This document shows, in pieces, positions 2,999 to 54,150 of a stretch of DNA of 58,928 bases. Origin of the DNA: Bacteroidota bacterium (GTDB lineage Bacteria > Bacteroidota > Bacteroidia > Bacteroidales > B18-G4); contig JAHJRE010000139.1 of the NCBI GenBank assembly GCA_018831055.1, positions 102,380 to 161,307 of the forward strand, written 5' to 3'. A program made the position numbers and the translations under genes. The stretch's first letter is position 1, and each line of letters opens with the position of its first letter. The notes under the pieces are model-generated. The model made no database searches and was not told the origin of the DNA. It saw nothing but the letters and a program-made list of their open reading frames with translations.

Positions 2999-3181
2999 AT
3001 ATAAAATTTTGTTACGCTAATGTACAATAAAACTGTCATTCATTATAGTGTGATTTTTCATTCTATACACGGGACGGTATTGGAAGTAAGTGAAGTTTAG
3101 TATTAAAGTATTGCTATTGGGTATATTAATACAGCAAACGGAATTTAATGCAACACCTCAGTCAAGTTATCTGAATAAAAA

Positions 3182-3214
3182 TTTGAAATCAGCATATATT
3201 TTTTCTTACATTTG
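3182..3214 (+). promoter_or_regulatory. Bacteroidota-type promoter for the DUF5723 gene
   Basis: TTTG at 3182-3185 and TACATTTG at 3207-3214 are separated by 21 bp. This matches the Bacteroidota sigma-ABfr consensus TTTG-N(19-21)-TAnnTTTG. It lies 26 bp upstream of the ATG at 3241 in an AT-rich intergenic stretch. The call is by pattern only. Confidence 0.55.
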
Positions 3215-3240
3215 ATCATGCAAACTAAATTCCTGGAATC

Positions 3241-4698
3241 ATGAAAAAAATCTTCGCATTATTGTTAATGGCATTATTTATGGGTGCATCCGAATATGCC
3301 GGGGCACAAATAGAATACGGTGCTTTTAATGCAACCGCTTCCGGTTCGTCGGTTGCCACGCTTACCGATTACCAGTGCCTGGGTGTTAACCCGGCCAACC
3401 TTGGATGGAAACGAAATAAGCATAATTTTAACCTGGGTTTCTTTGAAGGTGGTTTTTCTATTTTTAGTGAACCACTGGAGAAAAAGAATGTTTATAAAGA
3501 CCTTATCGGAAACAGCAAGAACTTTTCCAGCAAAGATGAAAGAACAGAAGCTATTGTTAATTTTACAGACACAAAACTACTCATCAAATTTTCGGAGACC
3601 CTCTTTGGCATTTCTTTTCAGAAAGATGGGATAGGAGGGTTTGCTTTTACCATACGAAATCACGTGTTCTGGAACAGTACGCTGAACCGGACTGCTTCAG
3701 AATTGTTATTCATGGGTTATCATGCCCCTTATTTCGACTCCCTTGCTGTGGATCAGCAGGGTGATACCATTGGCTATTCAACCAATCCGGAACTTGCTTC
3801 ACAACTGTATCACCCTACCGATATTTCCCATATCCTTTATAACGAATACATCCTGGGTTATGGAAGAAATATTATCGACAAGGAAAAATTCAAGTTTTAT
3901 GCCGGTATCGATATTAAGCTGTTGCAGGGTTATGGCATCCTGAATTATAATTCTGTTTCTCCAATAGCCGTGGAAGGCTACCAGGCCTTAAGTAACAAAT
4001 ACGGGGTGAAGTACGATGAGCCAACTCCTTCTGCGCTAACCGGAGATGGATTTCAGACCGCGGGGCTTGGCTTCGGAGTGGATATCGGGGTTGCCTTTGA
4101 GATCATCCAAAAGATCAAAATCGGTTTGGCTTTGAATGATATCGGTTCCATCAAGTGGGACGGGAACGTTTATGGCGGGGAAAATGTCAACATTTATGAG
4201 ATCAAAACCCCCGGCATCAACAGTTATGATATTTTTAACGAGAGCGGCGGTATCATAGCCGATAACACCAATCTTGGCAAATGGAAAGGATTGGCAAGCA
4301 AAACGGTACAGCTTCCCATGCATCTCAGGTTCGGCGCCAGTTACCAGGCTTTGGAGAATTTTGCCGTAGGCGGTGAGTTCTTTTATGGTTTCAACGACGA
4401 TCTGCCGGGTGCACTTACCGAGCCATTTTATGCCATCGGGACACGCTATCTTCCTCTCGACTGGGTTCAGCTTTCTCTGGGATTCAATTATGGCGGCGGT
4501 TTTGGATGGAATATCCCGATTGGCGTAACCTTTATACCGGTAAATAAAGACAATGTCTCCTGGGAAATCGGTTTTGCCAGCCGCGATGCAGCTACCTGGT
4601 TCCGCCAGAAAGACCCGCACGTCTCCCTCGTATTTGGTTTCCTGAGGTTTAGCTTTGGGACAAACGAAGTTGAAAAACGTTTCCTGGATGAGATGTAA
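3241..4698 (+). CDS. DUF5723-type outer-membrane beta-barrel protein
   Basis: This 485-residue exported protein has a clear signal peptide (MKKIFALLLMALFMGASEYAGAQ). The mature N-terminus contains the segment LTDYQCLGVNPANLGW, typical of the PorV/FadL-like and DUF5723 barrels of Bacteroidota in which an xNPAxL motif follows the first strand. The rest is a long run of amphipathic beta-strands (for example LGFGVDIGVAFEI, KIGLALNDIGSI, LSLGFNYGGGFGWNIPIGVTF). These proteins are predicted outer-membrane barrels of unknown substrate. It is monocistronic with its own promoter-like sequence and ends 8 bp from the convergent lipoprotein gene. Confidence 0.8.
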   Translation: MKKIFALLLMALFMGASEYAGAQIEYGAFNATASGSSVATLTDYQCLGVNPANLGWKRNKHNFNLGFFEGGFSIFSEPLEKKNVYKDLIGNSKNFSSKDERTEAIVNFTDTKLLIKFSETLFGISFQKDGIGGFAFTIRNHVFWNSTLNRTASELLFMGYHAPYFDSLAVDQQGDTIGYSTNPELASQLYHPTDISHILYNEYILGYGRNIIDKEKFKFYAGIDIKLLQGYGILNYNSVSPIAVEGYQALSNKYGVKYDEPTPSALTGDGFQTAGLGFGVDIGVAFEIIQKIKIGLALNDIGSIKWDGNVYGGENVNIYEIKTPGINSYDIFNESGGIIADNTNLGKWKGLASKTVQLPMHLRFGASYQALENFAVGGEFFYGFNDDLPGALTEPFYAIGTRYLPLDWVQLSLGFNYGGGFGWNIPIGVTFIPVNKDNVSWEIGFASRDAATWFRQKDPHVSLVFGFLRFSFGTNEVEKRFLDEM

Positions 4699-36275: not shown

Positions 36276-36375
36276 TTTATAAACATAAGACTTCTCCAAG
36301 GTCTGGTTCGCCAAAATCATAATCATTTTCCATCCAATTGAATCCGTTTTTTAATCCCGAAGAGGTTATATCTTT
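36276..36375. repeat. Lone, degenerate copy of the 168-bp array element
   Basis: TATAAACATAAGACTTCTCCAAGGTC and later TTAATCCCGAAGAGGTTATAT match, with changes, the first 100 bp of the units arrayed at 42609-43280 (ataaacataggacctcttcgaggtcc ... ttaatcccgaagggattacatgttta). Both hairpins are partly decayed (for example CTTCTCCAAG for CTCTTCGAG). The distance between the two hairpins is similar to the array units. This shows the element is dispersed, not only tandem. Confidence 0.7.
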
Positions 36376-36386
36376 ATTGATTATAT

Positions 36387-36425
36387 AAAAGGGACTCCAT
36401 CCTACGGGATGGAGTCCCTTTTTAT
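36387..36425 (-). terminator. Strong bidirectional hairpin terminator
   Basis: GGGACTCCATCC (36391-36402) pairs perfectly with GGATGGAGTCCC (36407-36418) around TACG. It is flanked by AAAA on one side and TTTTTAT on the other, so it can work in both directions. It lies 24 bp after the stop of the NmrA-like gene on the minus strand. Confidence 0.8.
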
Positions 36426-41228: not shown

Positions 41229-42596
41229 ATGCCTGCGGGAAAGCTTTCACACGAAAACAGCATGCTGGGCTCGGTTTACATTGGTGCCCTGCTTGTATTG
41301 ATGGATCTCAGCGCCATCAATATCGCCCTGCCGACCATCGGGGCTTTCTTTGATATGGAACCCGCGGAGGTGTCATGGCTGCTCATCCTCCCCATGCTTA
41401 CTTCAAGCGGCTTTTCAATGATCTCAGGACGGCTGACCGAGCTTGCCGGTCCCAGGAAACTGCTTCTGATGGGTAATGCTTCCTTCATGGTGCTGACATT
41501 CCTTTGCTTCGTCGTAAAGGATTTCGAGTGGATACTGGCATTCAGGATTTTACAGGGTTTTCCCCAGTCGTTGATTTATGTGATGGGACCGGCGCTTATC
41601 CGGCACAGGCTTCATTTCTCCAGGAGGCAGCAATCATATGGAATATGGATGATGTGTACCGGCATTGGCATCGCTCTGGGCCCGTTCATCGGGGGATTCC
41701 TGGTTGAAAACCCGGGCTGGAACTATGTGTTCCTGATCAATGTCCCCCTGGCTTTGGCCGGGTTTGTTTTTGCCCTGGGAATGGAGAAATCCAAAGGATC
41801 CGGAGCCATTTGGAATAAACTGGATATTCCCGGTTCTGTGCTGAGTTTTGTCTTTCTTGCTTTACTGGTTTTCGGACTGGGTCTTGCCCGCAGGAAGGGC
41901 ATCGCCGATCCGCTCGTGGCCAGCTTATTGATCTTATCCGTCGTTTTCCTGGTGCTATTTTTAAAACAGGAAAGGAAGACACGCTATCCGGTCTTCGACC
42001 TCAGCCTTTTCAGGATCAGGAATTTCAACCTCAGCATGACGGGTTTTTTCATATTCTTTTTCATTAACGTGGGGTCGAGGTTCCTGAGGCCTTATTATTT
42101 CGAGGAGGGCTTGTCCCTTTCACCCCGCGAATCCGGGTACCTTATGATGATAGCACCCCTGGTACTGGTCCTTGTTTCAGGGCTGAGCGGGTTTGTGGGC
42201 CGCTTTTTGTCTTCTTACAGGATGTATTTGTCGGGAACTGTGTTGCTGGCCGTTAGCACGCTGATGTTTTGCCTCTGGGACGGGCAGTCACAGACCTGGT
42301 TCCTGGTAATAACCATGGTAATCCTGGGCGTAGCCATGGGATTGTATTACCCGGTGTCGAGTTTTGTGGGTATGTCGGGACTGCCCGACGGGAAGCACGG
42401 CATGGGCTCGGCCGCTATCTCGGTTTCCAAAAGCCTGGGGAAACTGATGGGCGTGCTGGTGTTCTCGCAGATCTTTACCTGGCTGTTGCTCGAAGCCGGG
42501 AACGATATTGTGGGTGCATTCCGGATCACGTTTGTCATTGCAACGGGACTGGCCTTCTTGTCGGTGGTATTGTCGGTGTTTTTGAGAAGGGTGTGA
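41229..42596 (+). CDS. MFS drug exporter (DHA2/EmrB-QacA type)
   Basis: The 455-residue permease has 12-14 hydrophobic helices. The N-terminal MDLSAINIALPTIGAFFDMEPAEVSWLL is the D1-motif signature of the 14-TM DHA2 family (LDxTIVNVALP in classical members). Motif A-like ISGRLTELAGPRKLLLMG and motif C-like GIGIALGPFIGGFLVENPGWNYVFLINVP are also present. It should be a proton-coupled exporter of amphiphilic compounds or drugs. No regulator or membrane-fusion partner is adjacent; it stands alone between a terminator and the repeat array. Confidence 0.9.
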   Translation: MPAGKLSHENSMLGSVYIGALLVLMDLSAINIALPTIGAFFDMEPAEVSWLLILPMLTSSGFSMISGRLTELAGPRKLLLMGNASFMVLTFLCFVVKDFEWILAFRILQGFPQSLIYVMGPALIRHRLHFSRRQQSYGIWMMCTGIGIALGPFIGGFLVENPGWNYVFLINVPLALAGFVFALGMEKSKGSGAIWNKLDIPGSVLSFVFLALLVFGLGLARRKGIADPLVASLLILSVVFLVLFLKQERKTRYPVFDLSLFRIRNFNLSMTGFFIFFFINVGSRFLRPYYFEEGLSLSPRESGYLMMIAPLVLVLVSGLSGFVGRFLSSYRMYLSGTVLLAVSTLMFCLWDGQSQTWFLVITMVILGVAMGLYYPVSSFVGMSGLPDGKHGMGSAAISVSKSLGKLMGVLVFSQIFTWLLLEAGNDIVGAFRITFVIATGLAFLSVVLSVFLRRV

Positions 42597-42608
42597 TGGG
42601 GTTCCGGT

Positions 42609-43280
42609 CTATAAACATAGGACCTCTTCGAGGTCCTATACGTAATAGAAATGATAATTTCCAATCTCTTTGAATACCAGTCTTAATCCCGAAGGGATTA
42701 CATGTTTATAACACCAATGCGGCATAGTAATGTGCGACCCCTTCGGGGTCGAATGTGCTATACCCAATCGTTTTGGCTATAAACATAGGACCTCTTCGAG
42801 GTCCGGTACGTAATAGAAATGATAATTTTCAATCTCTTTGAATACAGGTCTTAATCCCGAAGGGATTACATGTTTATAGCAAGAATGTGGGATAACCTTG
42901 TGCGACCCCGAAGGGGTCGAATGTGCTATGCCCAATCGTTTTGGCTATAAACATAGGACTTCTTCGAGGTCCGGTACGTAATAGAAATGATAATTTCCAA
43001 TCTCTTCGAATACCGGTCTTAATCCCGAAGGGATTACATGTTTATAGCAAGAATGTGGGATAACGTTGTGCGACCCCGAAGGGGTCGAATGTGCTATGCC
43101 CAATTGTTTTGGCTATAAACATAGGACCTCTTCGAGGTCCGGTTTGTAAGTATAATATTCATTTCCAATCTGATCGACGCCCGGCCTTAATCCCGAAGGG
43201 ATTACATGTTTATAGCAAGAATGTGGGATAACCTTGTGCGACCCCGAAGGGGTCGAATGTGCTATGCCCAATCGTTTTGC
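42609..43280. repeat. Tandem array of four 168-bp palindromic repeat units
   Basis: Units start at 42609, 42777, 42945 and 43113, each exactly 168 bp from the next, with only point differences. Every unit holds three perfect 7-3-7 hairpins: H1 GGACCTC-TTC-GAGGTCC, H2 TAATCCC-GAA-GGGATTA, H3 CGACCCC-GAA-GGGGTCG (unit 2 positions 42788-42804, 42852-42868, 42903-42919). H1 to H2 is bounded by an outer inverted repeat, CTATAAACAT ... ATGTTTATAG, making a roughly 103-bp element followed by a 65-bp linker with H3. No credible gene lies inside; a short minus-strand frame is made of repeat sequence. A diverged copy is at 36276-36375. Confidence 0.9.
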
Positions 43281-43287
43281 CTCCGGC

Positions 43288-43319
43288 TTTGTGTATTTCA
43301 AATGATTTTATTATTTTTG
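43288..43319 (+). promoter_or_regulatory. Promoter of the DUF4143 AAA ATPase gene
   Basis: TTTG (43288-43291), 20 bp, TATTTTTG (43312-43319) is a near-perfect Bacteroidota promoter. It begins just after the last repeat unit and lies 49 bp before the ATG. Confidence 0.6.
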
Positions 43320-43320
43320 C

Positions 43321-43364
43321 TAAATAGTAAATAGTAATTATGATTAAAATTACTAAATAGTAAT
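43321..43364. promoter_or_regulatory. TAGTAA-type repeats in the leader of the ATPase gene
   Basis: TAAATAGTAA is repeated three times between promoter and start codon. The last copy lies in a 16-bp inverted repeat ATTACTA-AA-TAGTAAT (43349-43364), five bases before the ATG. The site is downstream of the promoter, a location suited to repression or translational control. No Shine-Dalgarno sequence is present. Confidence 0.5.
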
Positions 43365-43368
43365 TAGT

Positions 43369-44616
43369 ATGAAAACTGAAGACTTACGTGAATTATTGAT
43401 CCGGCAAAGGAAAATTTATGAAGAGTTTTTGATAGAAAGGGAAAGAAGAAGTGACCTGGACGCCCTTGATGAATTTGTAACAGTTATCACCGGGGTAAGA
43501 AGATGTGGAAAATCTACCTTGCTGAAGCAAGCTTTTTTTGAGGAAAGCTATTTTGTGAACTTTGATGATGAGCGTTTCATCAATTTCAGGATTGAAGATT
43601 TTAGTAAATTATTTGAGCTTCTTCACGAATTATTTGGAAATAAAAAGTACTTCATTTTTGATGAAGTTCAGAATGTTACCGGATGGGAGCGGTTTGTCAG
43701 ACGGCTGAACAATGAAAAAATGAAGGTTTTTATTACAGGATCAAATGCAAACCTGCTTAGCAGGGAACTAGGAACCTACCTGACGGGAAGGACGATAATG
43801 ATAGAATTGTATCCTTTTTCATTCAGGGAGTTCCTGTTATTTAAAGGCTTGAGTTTTGATGTTAAACGATTGGTACTCGAAGAGAAAGCTGAACTAAAAA
43901 GACAATTCTATGAATATATGGAAATAGGAGGGTTTCCTGAATATGTGAGAACCAAAAAGCCTGAATACCTTCAGGCACTATTCAACAATATAATTTTCAG
44001 GGATATCGTTGGAAGATATAAAATAAGGGCAGAAAGGGAACTCAGGGAAATAGTATTGCATGCGATGAGTAACCTGGCCAAAGAGATCAGCTATAACAGC
44101 CTGAGAAAACTGACAGGACTTTCAAATACCAGCACCATCAGTGACTTTTTCTATTATTTTGAGAATTCATATCTTTTGTTCACGGTCCATCGGTATGACA
44201 ATTCCCTGAAAAAGCAAATTAACAATCCAAAGAAAGTGTATTGCATTGATACCGGACTTGCTTTCCAGCTTGGGTTCAGAACTTCAGAAGACAAAGGAAG
44301 GTTGCTTGAGAACATTGTATTTCTTCAACTCAAACGGTTGGGCAAGGATATCTATTTCCATAAAAGAAAGTACGAATGTGATTTCTTAATAAAGGATGGG
44401 ATAAGAATCACCAATGCCATACAAGTATGCCATTCGCTTGATACTGTTAACAGGGAAAGGGAGTATAGAGGCCTCTGTGAAGCAATCGAAGAGCATAAAC
44501 TCAATCAGGGTACCATCCTGACCTTTGAACAGGAAGAAGAGATTAATTATAATGGGAAAAAAGTAATAATCGAACCTGTTTACAAATGGCTTTTAGAGGG
44601 TAATGCTTTACAGTAG
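43369..44616 (+). CDS. AAA ATPase with C-terminal DUF4143 domain
   Basis: The 415-residue protein has a Walker A GVRRCGKS (G42-S49) and a Walker B YFIFDEVQ (D98/E99), followed by the sensor-like FITGSNANLLSRELGTYLTGR and the family phrase LYPFSFREFL. The C-terminal third (about 310-415) is the DUF4143, PD-(D/E)XK-like fold: DTGLAFQLGF, LLENIVFLQLKRLG, YFHKRKYECDFLIKDG and NAIQVCHSL. Hundreds of such ATPases occur in Bacteroidota and archaea in mobile, multi-copy families; their role is unknown, with nuclease or toxin-like functions suggested. It sits between the repeat array and a truncated T9SS gene, consistent with an inserted accessory gene. Its codon usage is more AT-rich than that of its neighbours. 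Confidence 0.88.
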   Translation: MKTEDLRELLIRQRKIYEEFLIERERRSDLDALDEFVTVITGVRRCGKSTLLKQAFFEESYFVNFDDERFINFRIEDFSKLFELLHELFGNKKYFIFDEVQNVTGWERFVRRLNNEKMKVFITGSNANLLSRELGTYLTGRTIMIELYPFSFREFLLFKGLSFDVKRLVLEEKAELKRQFYEYMEIGGFPEYVRTKKPEYLQALFNNIIFRDIVGRYKIRAERELREIVLHAMSNLAKEISYNSLRKLTGLSNTSTISDFFYYFENSYLLFTVHRYDNSLKKQINNPKKVYCIDTGLAFQLGFRTSEDKGRLLENIVFLQLKRLGKDIYFHKRKYECDFLIKDGIRITNAIQVCHSLDTVNREREYRGLCEAIEEHKLNQGTILTFEQEEEINYNGKKVIIEPVYKWLLEGNALQ

Positions 44617-54065: not shown

Positions 54066-54150
54066 AAACCTCTGTGGAGCTCCTGAAATAATAACTTTCA
54101 CGGAGTTTCACAGAGGTTTCACAGGGTACCACAGAGGAAGTCTCTGCGGG
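54066..54150. terminator. CTCTGTG inverted-repeat intergenic structure between convergent genes
   Basis: AAACCTCTGTG (54066-54076) and CACAGAGGTTT (54109-54119) are exact reverse complements. Further partial copies (CACAGGGTACCACAGAGG) follow, then GGGACTTTTT. It sits between two convergent T9SS genes and may end transcription from both sides. Confidence 0.45.

Follow-up and report, generated by a model that had tools for sequence, protein, structure and literature searches.

The repeat array and its neighbors

The window (the whole 58,928-nucleotide stretch of DNA analyzed, from a Bacteroidota genome) carries a tandem array of four 168-bp units between an MFS transporter gene and an ATPase gene (Table 1). 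Tandem Repeats Finder reports a single array at 42609–43279 with a period of 168, 4.0 copies, 91% matches and 0% indels, which bears out the exact register described in an earlier note on this DNA. Three hairpins per unit, H1, H2 and H3, start at unit positions 12, 76 and 127. Their coordinates match the spacings given in that note: 64 bp from H1 to H2, 51 bp from H2 to H3 and 53 bp from H3 to the next H1. All were said to be perfect 7-3-7 hairpins; 11 of the 12 are, and H1 of copy 3 (42956–42972) has one changed base. Under a first-order Markov null, the same 672 bp would hold 0.06 perfect 7-3-7 hairpins on average, and no more than 2 in any of 500 samples. The inverted repeat of CTATAAACAT and ATGTTTATAG flanking the outer hairpins is present as claimed, with one mismatch at 42702–42711. 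Compared pairwise, the units differ at 6 to 33 of their 168 positions. The loop of H3 reads TTC in copy 1 (42735–42751) and GAA in copies 2–4 (e.g., 42903–42919), flipped between identical perfect arms.

The array appears to be noncoding, as had been supposed. No ORF of at least 80 aa lies inside it, and two ORFs overlap just its first 56–65 bp. Being tandem units without variable spacers, the repeats also do not look like a CRISPR. The sequence flanking the array shows no continuation of the repeat (5/30 and 7/30 matches).

Several other features of the window are recorded here for completeness. Right after the decayed repeat copy listed in Table 1, at 36387–36423, there is a strong hairpin resembling an intrinsic terminator, with 12-bp GC-rich arms and a T tail (identified by eye). 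Short AT-rich repeats (CTAAATAGTAAATAGTAATTA and similar) occupy 43320–43370, immediately 5' of the AAA_14/DUF4143 gene, and are possibly an operator. A 21-bp CACAGAG-type repeat is present in two copies at 54096–54137. An empty-site comparison with 12 relatives gave no readable insertion event, since none of them has a good ortholog of the upstream MFS gene, and neither an insertion polymorphism nor an empty site came to light.

Table 1. Coordinates of the array, its component elements and its neighbors in the window.
Feature	Coordinates	Strand	Remarks
Decayed single H1–H2 copy	36278..36377	+	71% identical to unit positions 2–101; no H3
DHA2/EmrB-like MFS transporter gene	41229..42596	+	Best NCBIfam match under its cut-off; stop codon 12 bp ahead of array
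Whole array, four 168-bp units	42609..43280		5' end exactly at CTATAAACAT; 3' end just short of the next expected CTATAAACAT
H1 of copy 1, GGACCTC-TTC-GAGGTCC	42620..42636	+	CTATAAACAT ahead of the stem at 42609–42618
Three-hairpin element 1	42684..42804		H2 42684–42700, middle H3 42735–42751 (loop TTC), H1 of copy 2 42788–42804; delimited by comparison with other genomes
Three-hairpin element 2	42852..42972		H2 42852–42868, H3 42903–42919, H1 of copy 3 42956–42972 (one changed base)
Three-hairpin element 3	43020..43140		H2 43020–43036, H3 43071–43087, H1 of copy 4 43124–43140
Truncated element 4	43188..43255		H2 43188–43204, H3 43239–43255; no third hairpin
AAA_14/DUF4143 ATPase gene	43369..44616	+	First gene 3' of array

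Copies elsewhere in the genome

The array is not alone in its genome. The host assembly comprises 4.19 Mb in 342 contigs and is 96% complete, and a genome-wide search for units returned another array of the 168-bp unit at C75:24536–24870, which is 79–83% identical and reaches the contig end, besides the decayed copy of Table 1. Hairpins of the form CCCC-NNN-GGGGTC occur in 28 places in the whole genome (27 forward and 26 reverse matches), and the reversed-pattern control gives 0. They are found on contigs C44, C59, C75, C139, C179, C188, C221 and C222. On C44, C59 and C188, they sit in 51-bp direct repeats, and several are preceded by CTATAAACAT-GC (CTATAAACAT-GC-GACCCC). The CTATAAACAT tag alone is a poor genome-wide marker, with 23 matches in the own genome versus 15 for its reversed control; eight CTATAAACAT sites, on C7, C31, C84, C109, C125, C186, C191 and C193, lack such a hairpin.

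The transposase of the host genome

The only match to PF01797 (Y1_Tnp) at E ≤ 0.001 in the genome is a 154-aa protein, P0001, encoded at C221:1872–2336. This tnpA gene is on a different contig from the window array and adjoins the 51-bp form of the repeat: a 7.4-copy, 51-bp array with the CGACCCC hairpin starts about 25 bp past its stop codon. The tag is degenerate in that array, appearing as TATAGATAT, TACAGATAT and TACAGACAT. The 51-bp array by tnpA also contains seven four-G-run (quadruplex-type) motifs spaced 51 bp apart on the tnpA coding strand (L044:2374–2680); the same regular expression finds two in L046 and none in the window.

P0001 carries the motifs DHLH (DHIH in the consensus of its clade, defined below), WQ and YIHNQKVHH. 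Judged by the motifs printed in PMC6006769, it appears to fit TnpA_Y1 subclass 1.2, for which DH(I/V)H, WQ, Y-x3-Q-x2-HH, a length of about 148 aa and a C-terminal extension are characteristic; this comparison covers the printed motifs and the length. The Y-x3-NP motif of class 2 RAYTs is absent. Among NCBIfam models, the IS200/IS605 family transposase scores 68.9 bits, above its cut-off of 55, and REP_Tyr_transpos scores 27.4 bits, below its cut-off of 80. An AlphaFold2 model of a TnpA from the same clade (L099; mean pLDDT 88) gives the clade a predicted HUH fold. Its closest structures are the TnpA proteins of ISDra2 and IS608, and the REP-bound tyrosine transposase 4er8 ranks 24 of 30 structure matches at E ≤ 0.001.

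PMC6006769 (2018) describes subclass 1.2 as lacking IS properties and lists it in its own Table 1 with REP 'no'. The automatic REP search of that study relied on hairpins with a 5' GT(A/G)G foot, and because that foot was sought, the search would miss elements tagged with CTATAAACAT. In the open-access literature, we found no paper linking subclass 1.2 to REPs.

A clade of TnpA proteins is flanked by hairpins

Of 149 relatives, a count that takes in the own genome, 86 show a match of some kind to P0001. The 11 best-matching loci (the own locus and ten at 61–66% identity) all have nearby hairpins of the array type, and this set of the TnpA loci closest to P0001 (set A2) was chosen once their hairpins had been noticed. 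Of the next 19 loci, 16 have no hairpins and three have one each. Of these three single hairpins, the one at L074, CAATGCC-TTC-GGCATTG, resembles a REP stem and lies 1.3 kb off.

A scan of named genomes contributed 80 further loci, the best 80 of at least 534 confirmed, from Flavobacterium, Lacihabitans, Algoriphagus, Pedobacter, Labilibaculum, Chitinophagaceae, Bacteroidales and others. The resulting tree has 109 proteins; the duplicate L107 (=L055) was removed, and L116 and L147, which have one internal stop each, were entered with X. Clade membership was set by the tree, and hairpins were not used. In this tree, including the best 80 of at least 534 loci, the host protein falls in a clade of 46 with a support of 95/100. 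The hairpin counts around each gene take perfect hairpins of any sequence with a stem of at least 7 within 1 kb. At least one such hairpin is present at 41/46 clade loci versus 19/63 others, and at least two are present at 32/46 versus 5/63. Fisher tests of clade versus others give 4e-10 and 1e-11, respectively, with relatedness ignored. The clade loci contributed solely by the named-genome scan (again from the best 80 of at least 534) show a hairpin in 30/34 cases. Five of the 46 clade loci have no hairpin of stem ≥7; one of them stops at a contig end, and one has 126 bp upstream only. Mapped on the tree, the two-or-more-hairpin trait requires 17 changes, below all 500 shuffles (mean 31). The trait clusters on the tree yet spans more than one branch. 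A transposase gene flanked by REPs is the arrangement expected of a RAYT, and the 41/46 clade loci show it as a functional parallel only.

Outside the main clade, the locus of Algoriphagus boritolerans (L157, TnpA at 3001–3450) has 17 hairpins of another type within 1 kb. Their stems include GCGTTCC, ATGTCCC and TCGTTCC, and many are 51–55 bp apart. These suggest that more REP types exist in subclass 1.2.

The tag and the stem

The typical REP of this family consists of CTATAAACAT, 2 nt, and a stem of 6 to 7 bp closed by a 3-nt loop. Its tag, CTATAAACAT followed by NN, is neither the GT(A/G)G nor the CGTC by which REPs are recognized. We examined sites picked by the motif TATAAACAT and not by pairing. 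In the clade loci, 73/105 exact TATAAACAT sites have a perfect stem of 6 bp or more starting within 4 nt; in the other 63 loci, 0/6 have a hairpin. Four scrambled motifs are followed by a hairpin at 0/40 sites in clade loci and 3/53 in other loci. The 105 sites are spread over 24/46 clade loci, of which 21 have a paired site. One locus, L102 from Candidatus Parvibacillus calidus, gives 30 of the 105 sites (13 paired), and when it is excluded, the count is 60/75. The exact site is absent from 22/46 clade loci, including the own tnpA locus, where the array has TATAGATAT-like variants. Many REPs of L102 have a doubled CTATAAACAT motif, 16 bp apart, ahead of one hairpin.

With the stems of the 81 distinct sites in true register, 85% of their pairs (six per stem) are Watson–Crick, versus 17–39% when slid by 1–3. 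Fully paired sites number 51/81, versus 6.1 on average and at most 14 after 3'-arm swaps among sites, a comparison uncorrected for relatedness. Sixteen stem sequences are seen, including GACCTC and AATCCC, which are both outer stems of the window. This covariation among distinct sites documents that pairing is maintained while the sequence varies. The compensatory changes that the earlier note proposed to look for among the copies are abundant across relatives; among the four copies of the array there are none, just a single one-sided change, and covariation within the array is uninformative. Two of the outcomes that the note named as refuting it, no excess of compensatory changes and a single array in the genome, are not what is seen.

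The three-hairpin element

When the 46 clade loci were scanned with degenerate tags allowed, 21 inward-facing ATGTTTATAG...CTATAAACAT pairs were found. Nineteen of these, from 13 clade loci, are 69–80 bp apart, and the value in the window is 75. All 19 enclose a middle hairpin, which is CGACCCC or CGACTCC in 15 and CGACCC, TGACCC or TGACCCC in 4. The two remaining pairs, 119 and 134 bp apart, fall outside the pattern, and the eleven outward-facing pairs have scattered distances (48–139 bp). The geometry recurs, in just 13/46 clade loci. Two inverted REPs forming a larger hairpin are what is called a REPIN or BIME, and the 19 inward pairs have this arrangement.

Isolated elements were found as well, one in a Flavobacterium genome (L189) and two in a Labilibaculum genome (L190), with spacings of 50–51 and 52–53 bp. 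Since these isolated copies share nearly the 51/53-bp spacings of the window, the natural element there is H2–H3–next H1, with two outer hairpins, tags facing inward and a middle hairpin. The H1–H2–H3 phase in which the units were first described is probably not the biological one, and the 64-bp step from H1 to H2 would be the junction of tandem elements. An awkward fit to this phase is the decayed H1–H2 piece at 36278.

Because both tags are complementary to each other, the element could adopt a three-armed form as single-stranded DNA. Minimum-energy ssDNA folds of elements 2 and 3 pair both tags (z −4.2 and −5.4), forming one outer hairpin and a long two-tag stem capped by the middle hairpin; the folded stretches ended inside the last hairpin, which is hence missing from the folds. 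Element 1 does not pair its tags (z −2.7); it has a damaged tag and folds more weakly.

Distribution across genomes

Similar repeats had been said to occur in other Bacteroidota, and they do. The full pattern is present in 9/11 TnpA genomes searched, with up to 23 copies and a control of 0; these 11 were picked among the 80 loci that are the best 80 of at least 534. With these genomes and the several contigs of the own genome, the repeats have the character of REPs, that is, short, multi-copy, dispersed palindromes. Their copy numbers are low next to those of classical REPs.

In the near relatives, where a clade TnpA was taken as one of at least 60% identity, two or more CGACCCC-NNN-GGGGTCG hairpins occur in 8/11 genomes with a clade TnpA versus 5/138 others. 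Two of the five TnpA-less hairpin genomes (about 75% complete) share a genus with the two other members sampled, and both of those have TnpA. The three TnpA genomes without two such hairpins have 4-nt loops or different stems instead. In a phylum sample of 296 genomes, the REP pattern is found in 14, of which 12 have TnpA at E ≤ 1e-50 (72/296 overall). Leaving out the own genome, TnpA is present in 11/13 genomes with the pattern versus 60/282 without it. The Fisher tests on co-occurrence ignore relatedness. Many of the 14 genomes have a single site, and a few of these sites are imperfectly paired. The exact pattern is missing in 60/72 genomes with related TnpA (E ≤ 1e-50), so either other versions of it exist or the linkage weakens beyond the clade. 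REP-like hairpins without a detected clade TnpA occur in G007, G008, G091, G101 and G102 among the near relatives and in G181 and G452 in the phylum sample.

REPs of the single-contig genome G271 are found as far as 0.6–1.4 Mb from either TnpA match. The same genome has a large mosaic hairpin array at C1:3118500–3122300 (L184), with recurring spacings of 54, 125, 166 and 219 bp and the nearest TnpA match 1.4 Mb off.

Origin of the array

The earlier note had left three options: an RNA array, a protein-binding lattice or a REP/MITE-like mobile element. Because the repeats recur in the genome, are dispersed in others, and both adjoin and co-occur with one TnpA clade, the last is favored and the first two less so. 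We consider it probable that the array is a tandem BIME-like cluster of a non-autonomous REP/REPIN-type element processed by a subclass 1.2 TnpA. The unit of this process would be an element of about 120 bp composed, in this order, of an outer hairpin, ATGTTTATAG, a middle hairpin of the CGACCCC type, CTATAAACAT and a second outer hairpin, with hairpin spacings of about 51 and 53 bp. What the data show directly are the repeats with their copies here and in other genomes, their linkage to and co-occurrence with this TnpA clade, the covarying stems, the recurring geometry and a predicted HUH fold; binding, the cleavage site, mobility, what drove the tandem amplification and any effects on neighboring genes are inferred. 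The small HUH tyrosine transposase encoded on C221 most likely recognizes the elements and would act by single-strand cleavage and rejoining. By analogy to IS608 and ISDra2, and to the REPtrons studied by experiment (PMC8266576), it would be expected to bind the hairpin in single-stranded DNA, with the unpaired tag guiding the choice of cleavage site. The start of the array exactly at CTATAAACAT predicts a cut on or close to the 5' side of the tag. Such processing could amplify elements beside tnpA and disperse others. The tandem growth of the window array may have come from TnpA processing or from recombination between copies.

The main rival takes the hairpins for the subterminal ends of an IS200/IS605 insertion sequence, the array and dispersed copies for its internally deleted, MITE-like derivatives, and TnpA for a normal transposase rather than a domesticated, RAYT-like one. 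It is strengthened by the 24/72 TnpA genomes of the phylum sample that hold 2 to 6 related TnpA matches, and it agrees with the NCBIfam scores on either side of their cut-offs and with IS608 and ISDra2 as the best structure matches. The own, 96% complete genome, however, has a single PF01797 gene, and the ten nearest relatives of its product, at 61–66% identity, include no near-copies. At several loci, hairpin elements flank the gene on either side, and their number and position vary, unlike a single left and a single right end, and the REPs of G271 are found far from either TnpA match. Copies of the tnpA 3' end adjoin other REP copies at L056, as this rival would have it, but a further copy of that end is found in just 1/43 testable clade loci. 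On balance, we regard the insertion sequence as unlikely. At L056, in the tnpA orientation, the 3'-end copies are near 1172 and 2211, beside other REP elements, as if copied jointly. The proposition that a tnpA 3' end belongs to each element was rejected, since L056 is the one such case among the 43 clade loci, versus 3/59 other loci.

Much less credible is that an RNA function maintains the array, its hairpins serving as terminators, attenuators or exonuclease blocks where the MFS transcript ends. The array does begin 12 bp past the MFS stop codon, and a loose terminator scan of 42300–43600 gives 8 sites versus 1.2 in shuffles, six of them array hairpins. The tails of these hairpins, however, are TGTTTATA, derived from the conserved tag, and not T runs, and intrinsic terminators were rejected on that ground. 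There is no Rfam match at E ≤ 1 for a structured RNA family in 42400–43400, and the same elements are found by tnpA and at many other sites. Any effect on RNA could have come secondarily with the REPs rather than account for how they arose. A DNA-binding lattice for gyrase, an IHF/HU-like protein or a partition protein is the least plausible of all: it draws on the regular 51/53/64-bp spacing and on the fact that REPs elsewhere bind gyrase and other proteins, but the linked protein found is TnpA (the sole protein looked for), and because stems change while pairing stays, recognition of structure is favored over a double-strand sequence site.

Beyond the array itself, we lean somewhat towards a wider proposal: that this is a REP/REPIN system arisen from an IS200-like class 1 branch of HUH proteins, separate from the class 2 RAYTs, and spread through Bacteroidota, with a three-hairpin element bearing a guide-like CTATAAACAT and a TnpA of subclass 1.2. 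If true, it would supply a substrate, and hence a probable role, for a subclass listed without REPs, and REP/transposase partnerships would have evolved more than once. It predicts a strand-specific ssDNA substrate of CTATAAACAT plus hairpin, catalysis by the tyrosine Y115 and some function for the middle hairpin. It would also explain palindromic repeats of Bacteroidota that are otherwise left unannotated or guessed to be regulatory RNA.

Relationship to known systems

Of the TnpA_Y1 subclasses, 1.2 is the one that the host protein resembles in length, WQ, Y-x3-Q-x2-HH, occurrence in Bacteroidetes and low copy number in its own genome, as PMC6006769 describes it. The difference is in the REP 'no' of that paper's Table 1, whereas here one clade has REP-like elements on its flanks. 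Similar to the present system, subclass 2.6 (Bacteroidetes) and class 3 have 'atypical secondary structures' beside their genes, and further copies of these are present in the same genomes. The motif of subclass 2.6 is YIH(Q/N)NP and its core length differs; class 3 has Y-x4-Q, a different core length and a CnGA foot. Class 3 is placed chiefly in Planctomycetes, Acidobacteria and Proteobacteria, and with its class-1-like Y-x4-Q motif it is discussed as a possible intermediate of classes 1 and 2. As presented there, it is a precedent for REP-like structures outside class 2.

The IS200/IS605 elements (IS608, ISDra2) and their MITE-like derivatives share with the present system the nearest structures, the NCBIfam name, subterminal hairpins and the expected ssDNA chemistry; they differ in that here there is one tnpA in the genome and the hairpins are inverted modules of variable number. 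The CGTC-tagged REPs of PMC3733652 are REP-like palindromes reported from five phyla that include Bacteroidetes. They have stems of 8–9 bp, loops of 4–5 nt, a CGTC tag and no associated transposase, and they were rejected as a parent family on tag, stem, loop and the missing transposase.

Another close parallel is the REP/REPIN (BIME) system with TnpA_REP (RAYT) of class 2, as in the REPtrons of E. coli and Stenotrophomonas maltophilia (PMC6006769 and PMC8266576). In both systems, short hairpins follow a conserved 5' tag that is left unpaired, and they form inverted pairs and tandem clusters; some copies flank an HUH tyrosine transposase gene and others are dispersed. The tag here is CTATAAACAT, 2 nt from the stem, whereas theirs is GT(A/G)G; the TnpA motif is Y-x3-Q-x2-HH and theirs Y-x3-NP; and many elements here have a third, middle hairpin. 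The present system would work like REP/REPIN–RAYT yet lies outside those described, its tag being neither GTAG nor CGTC and its transposase not class 2.
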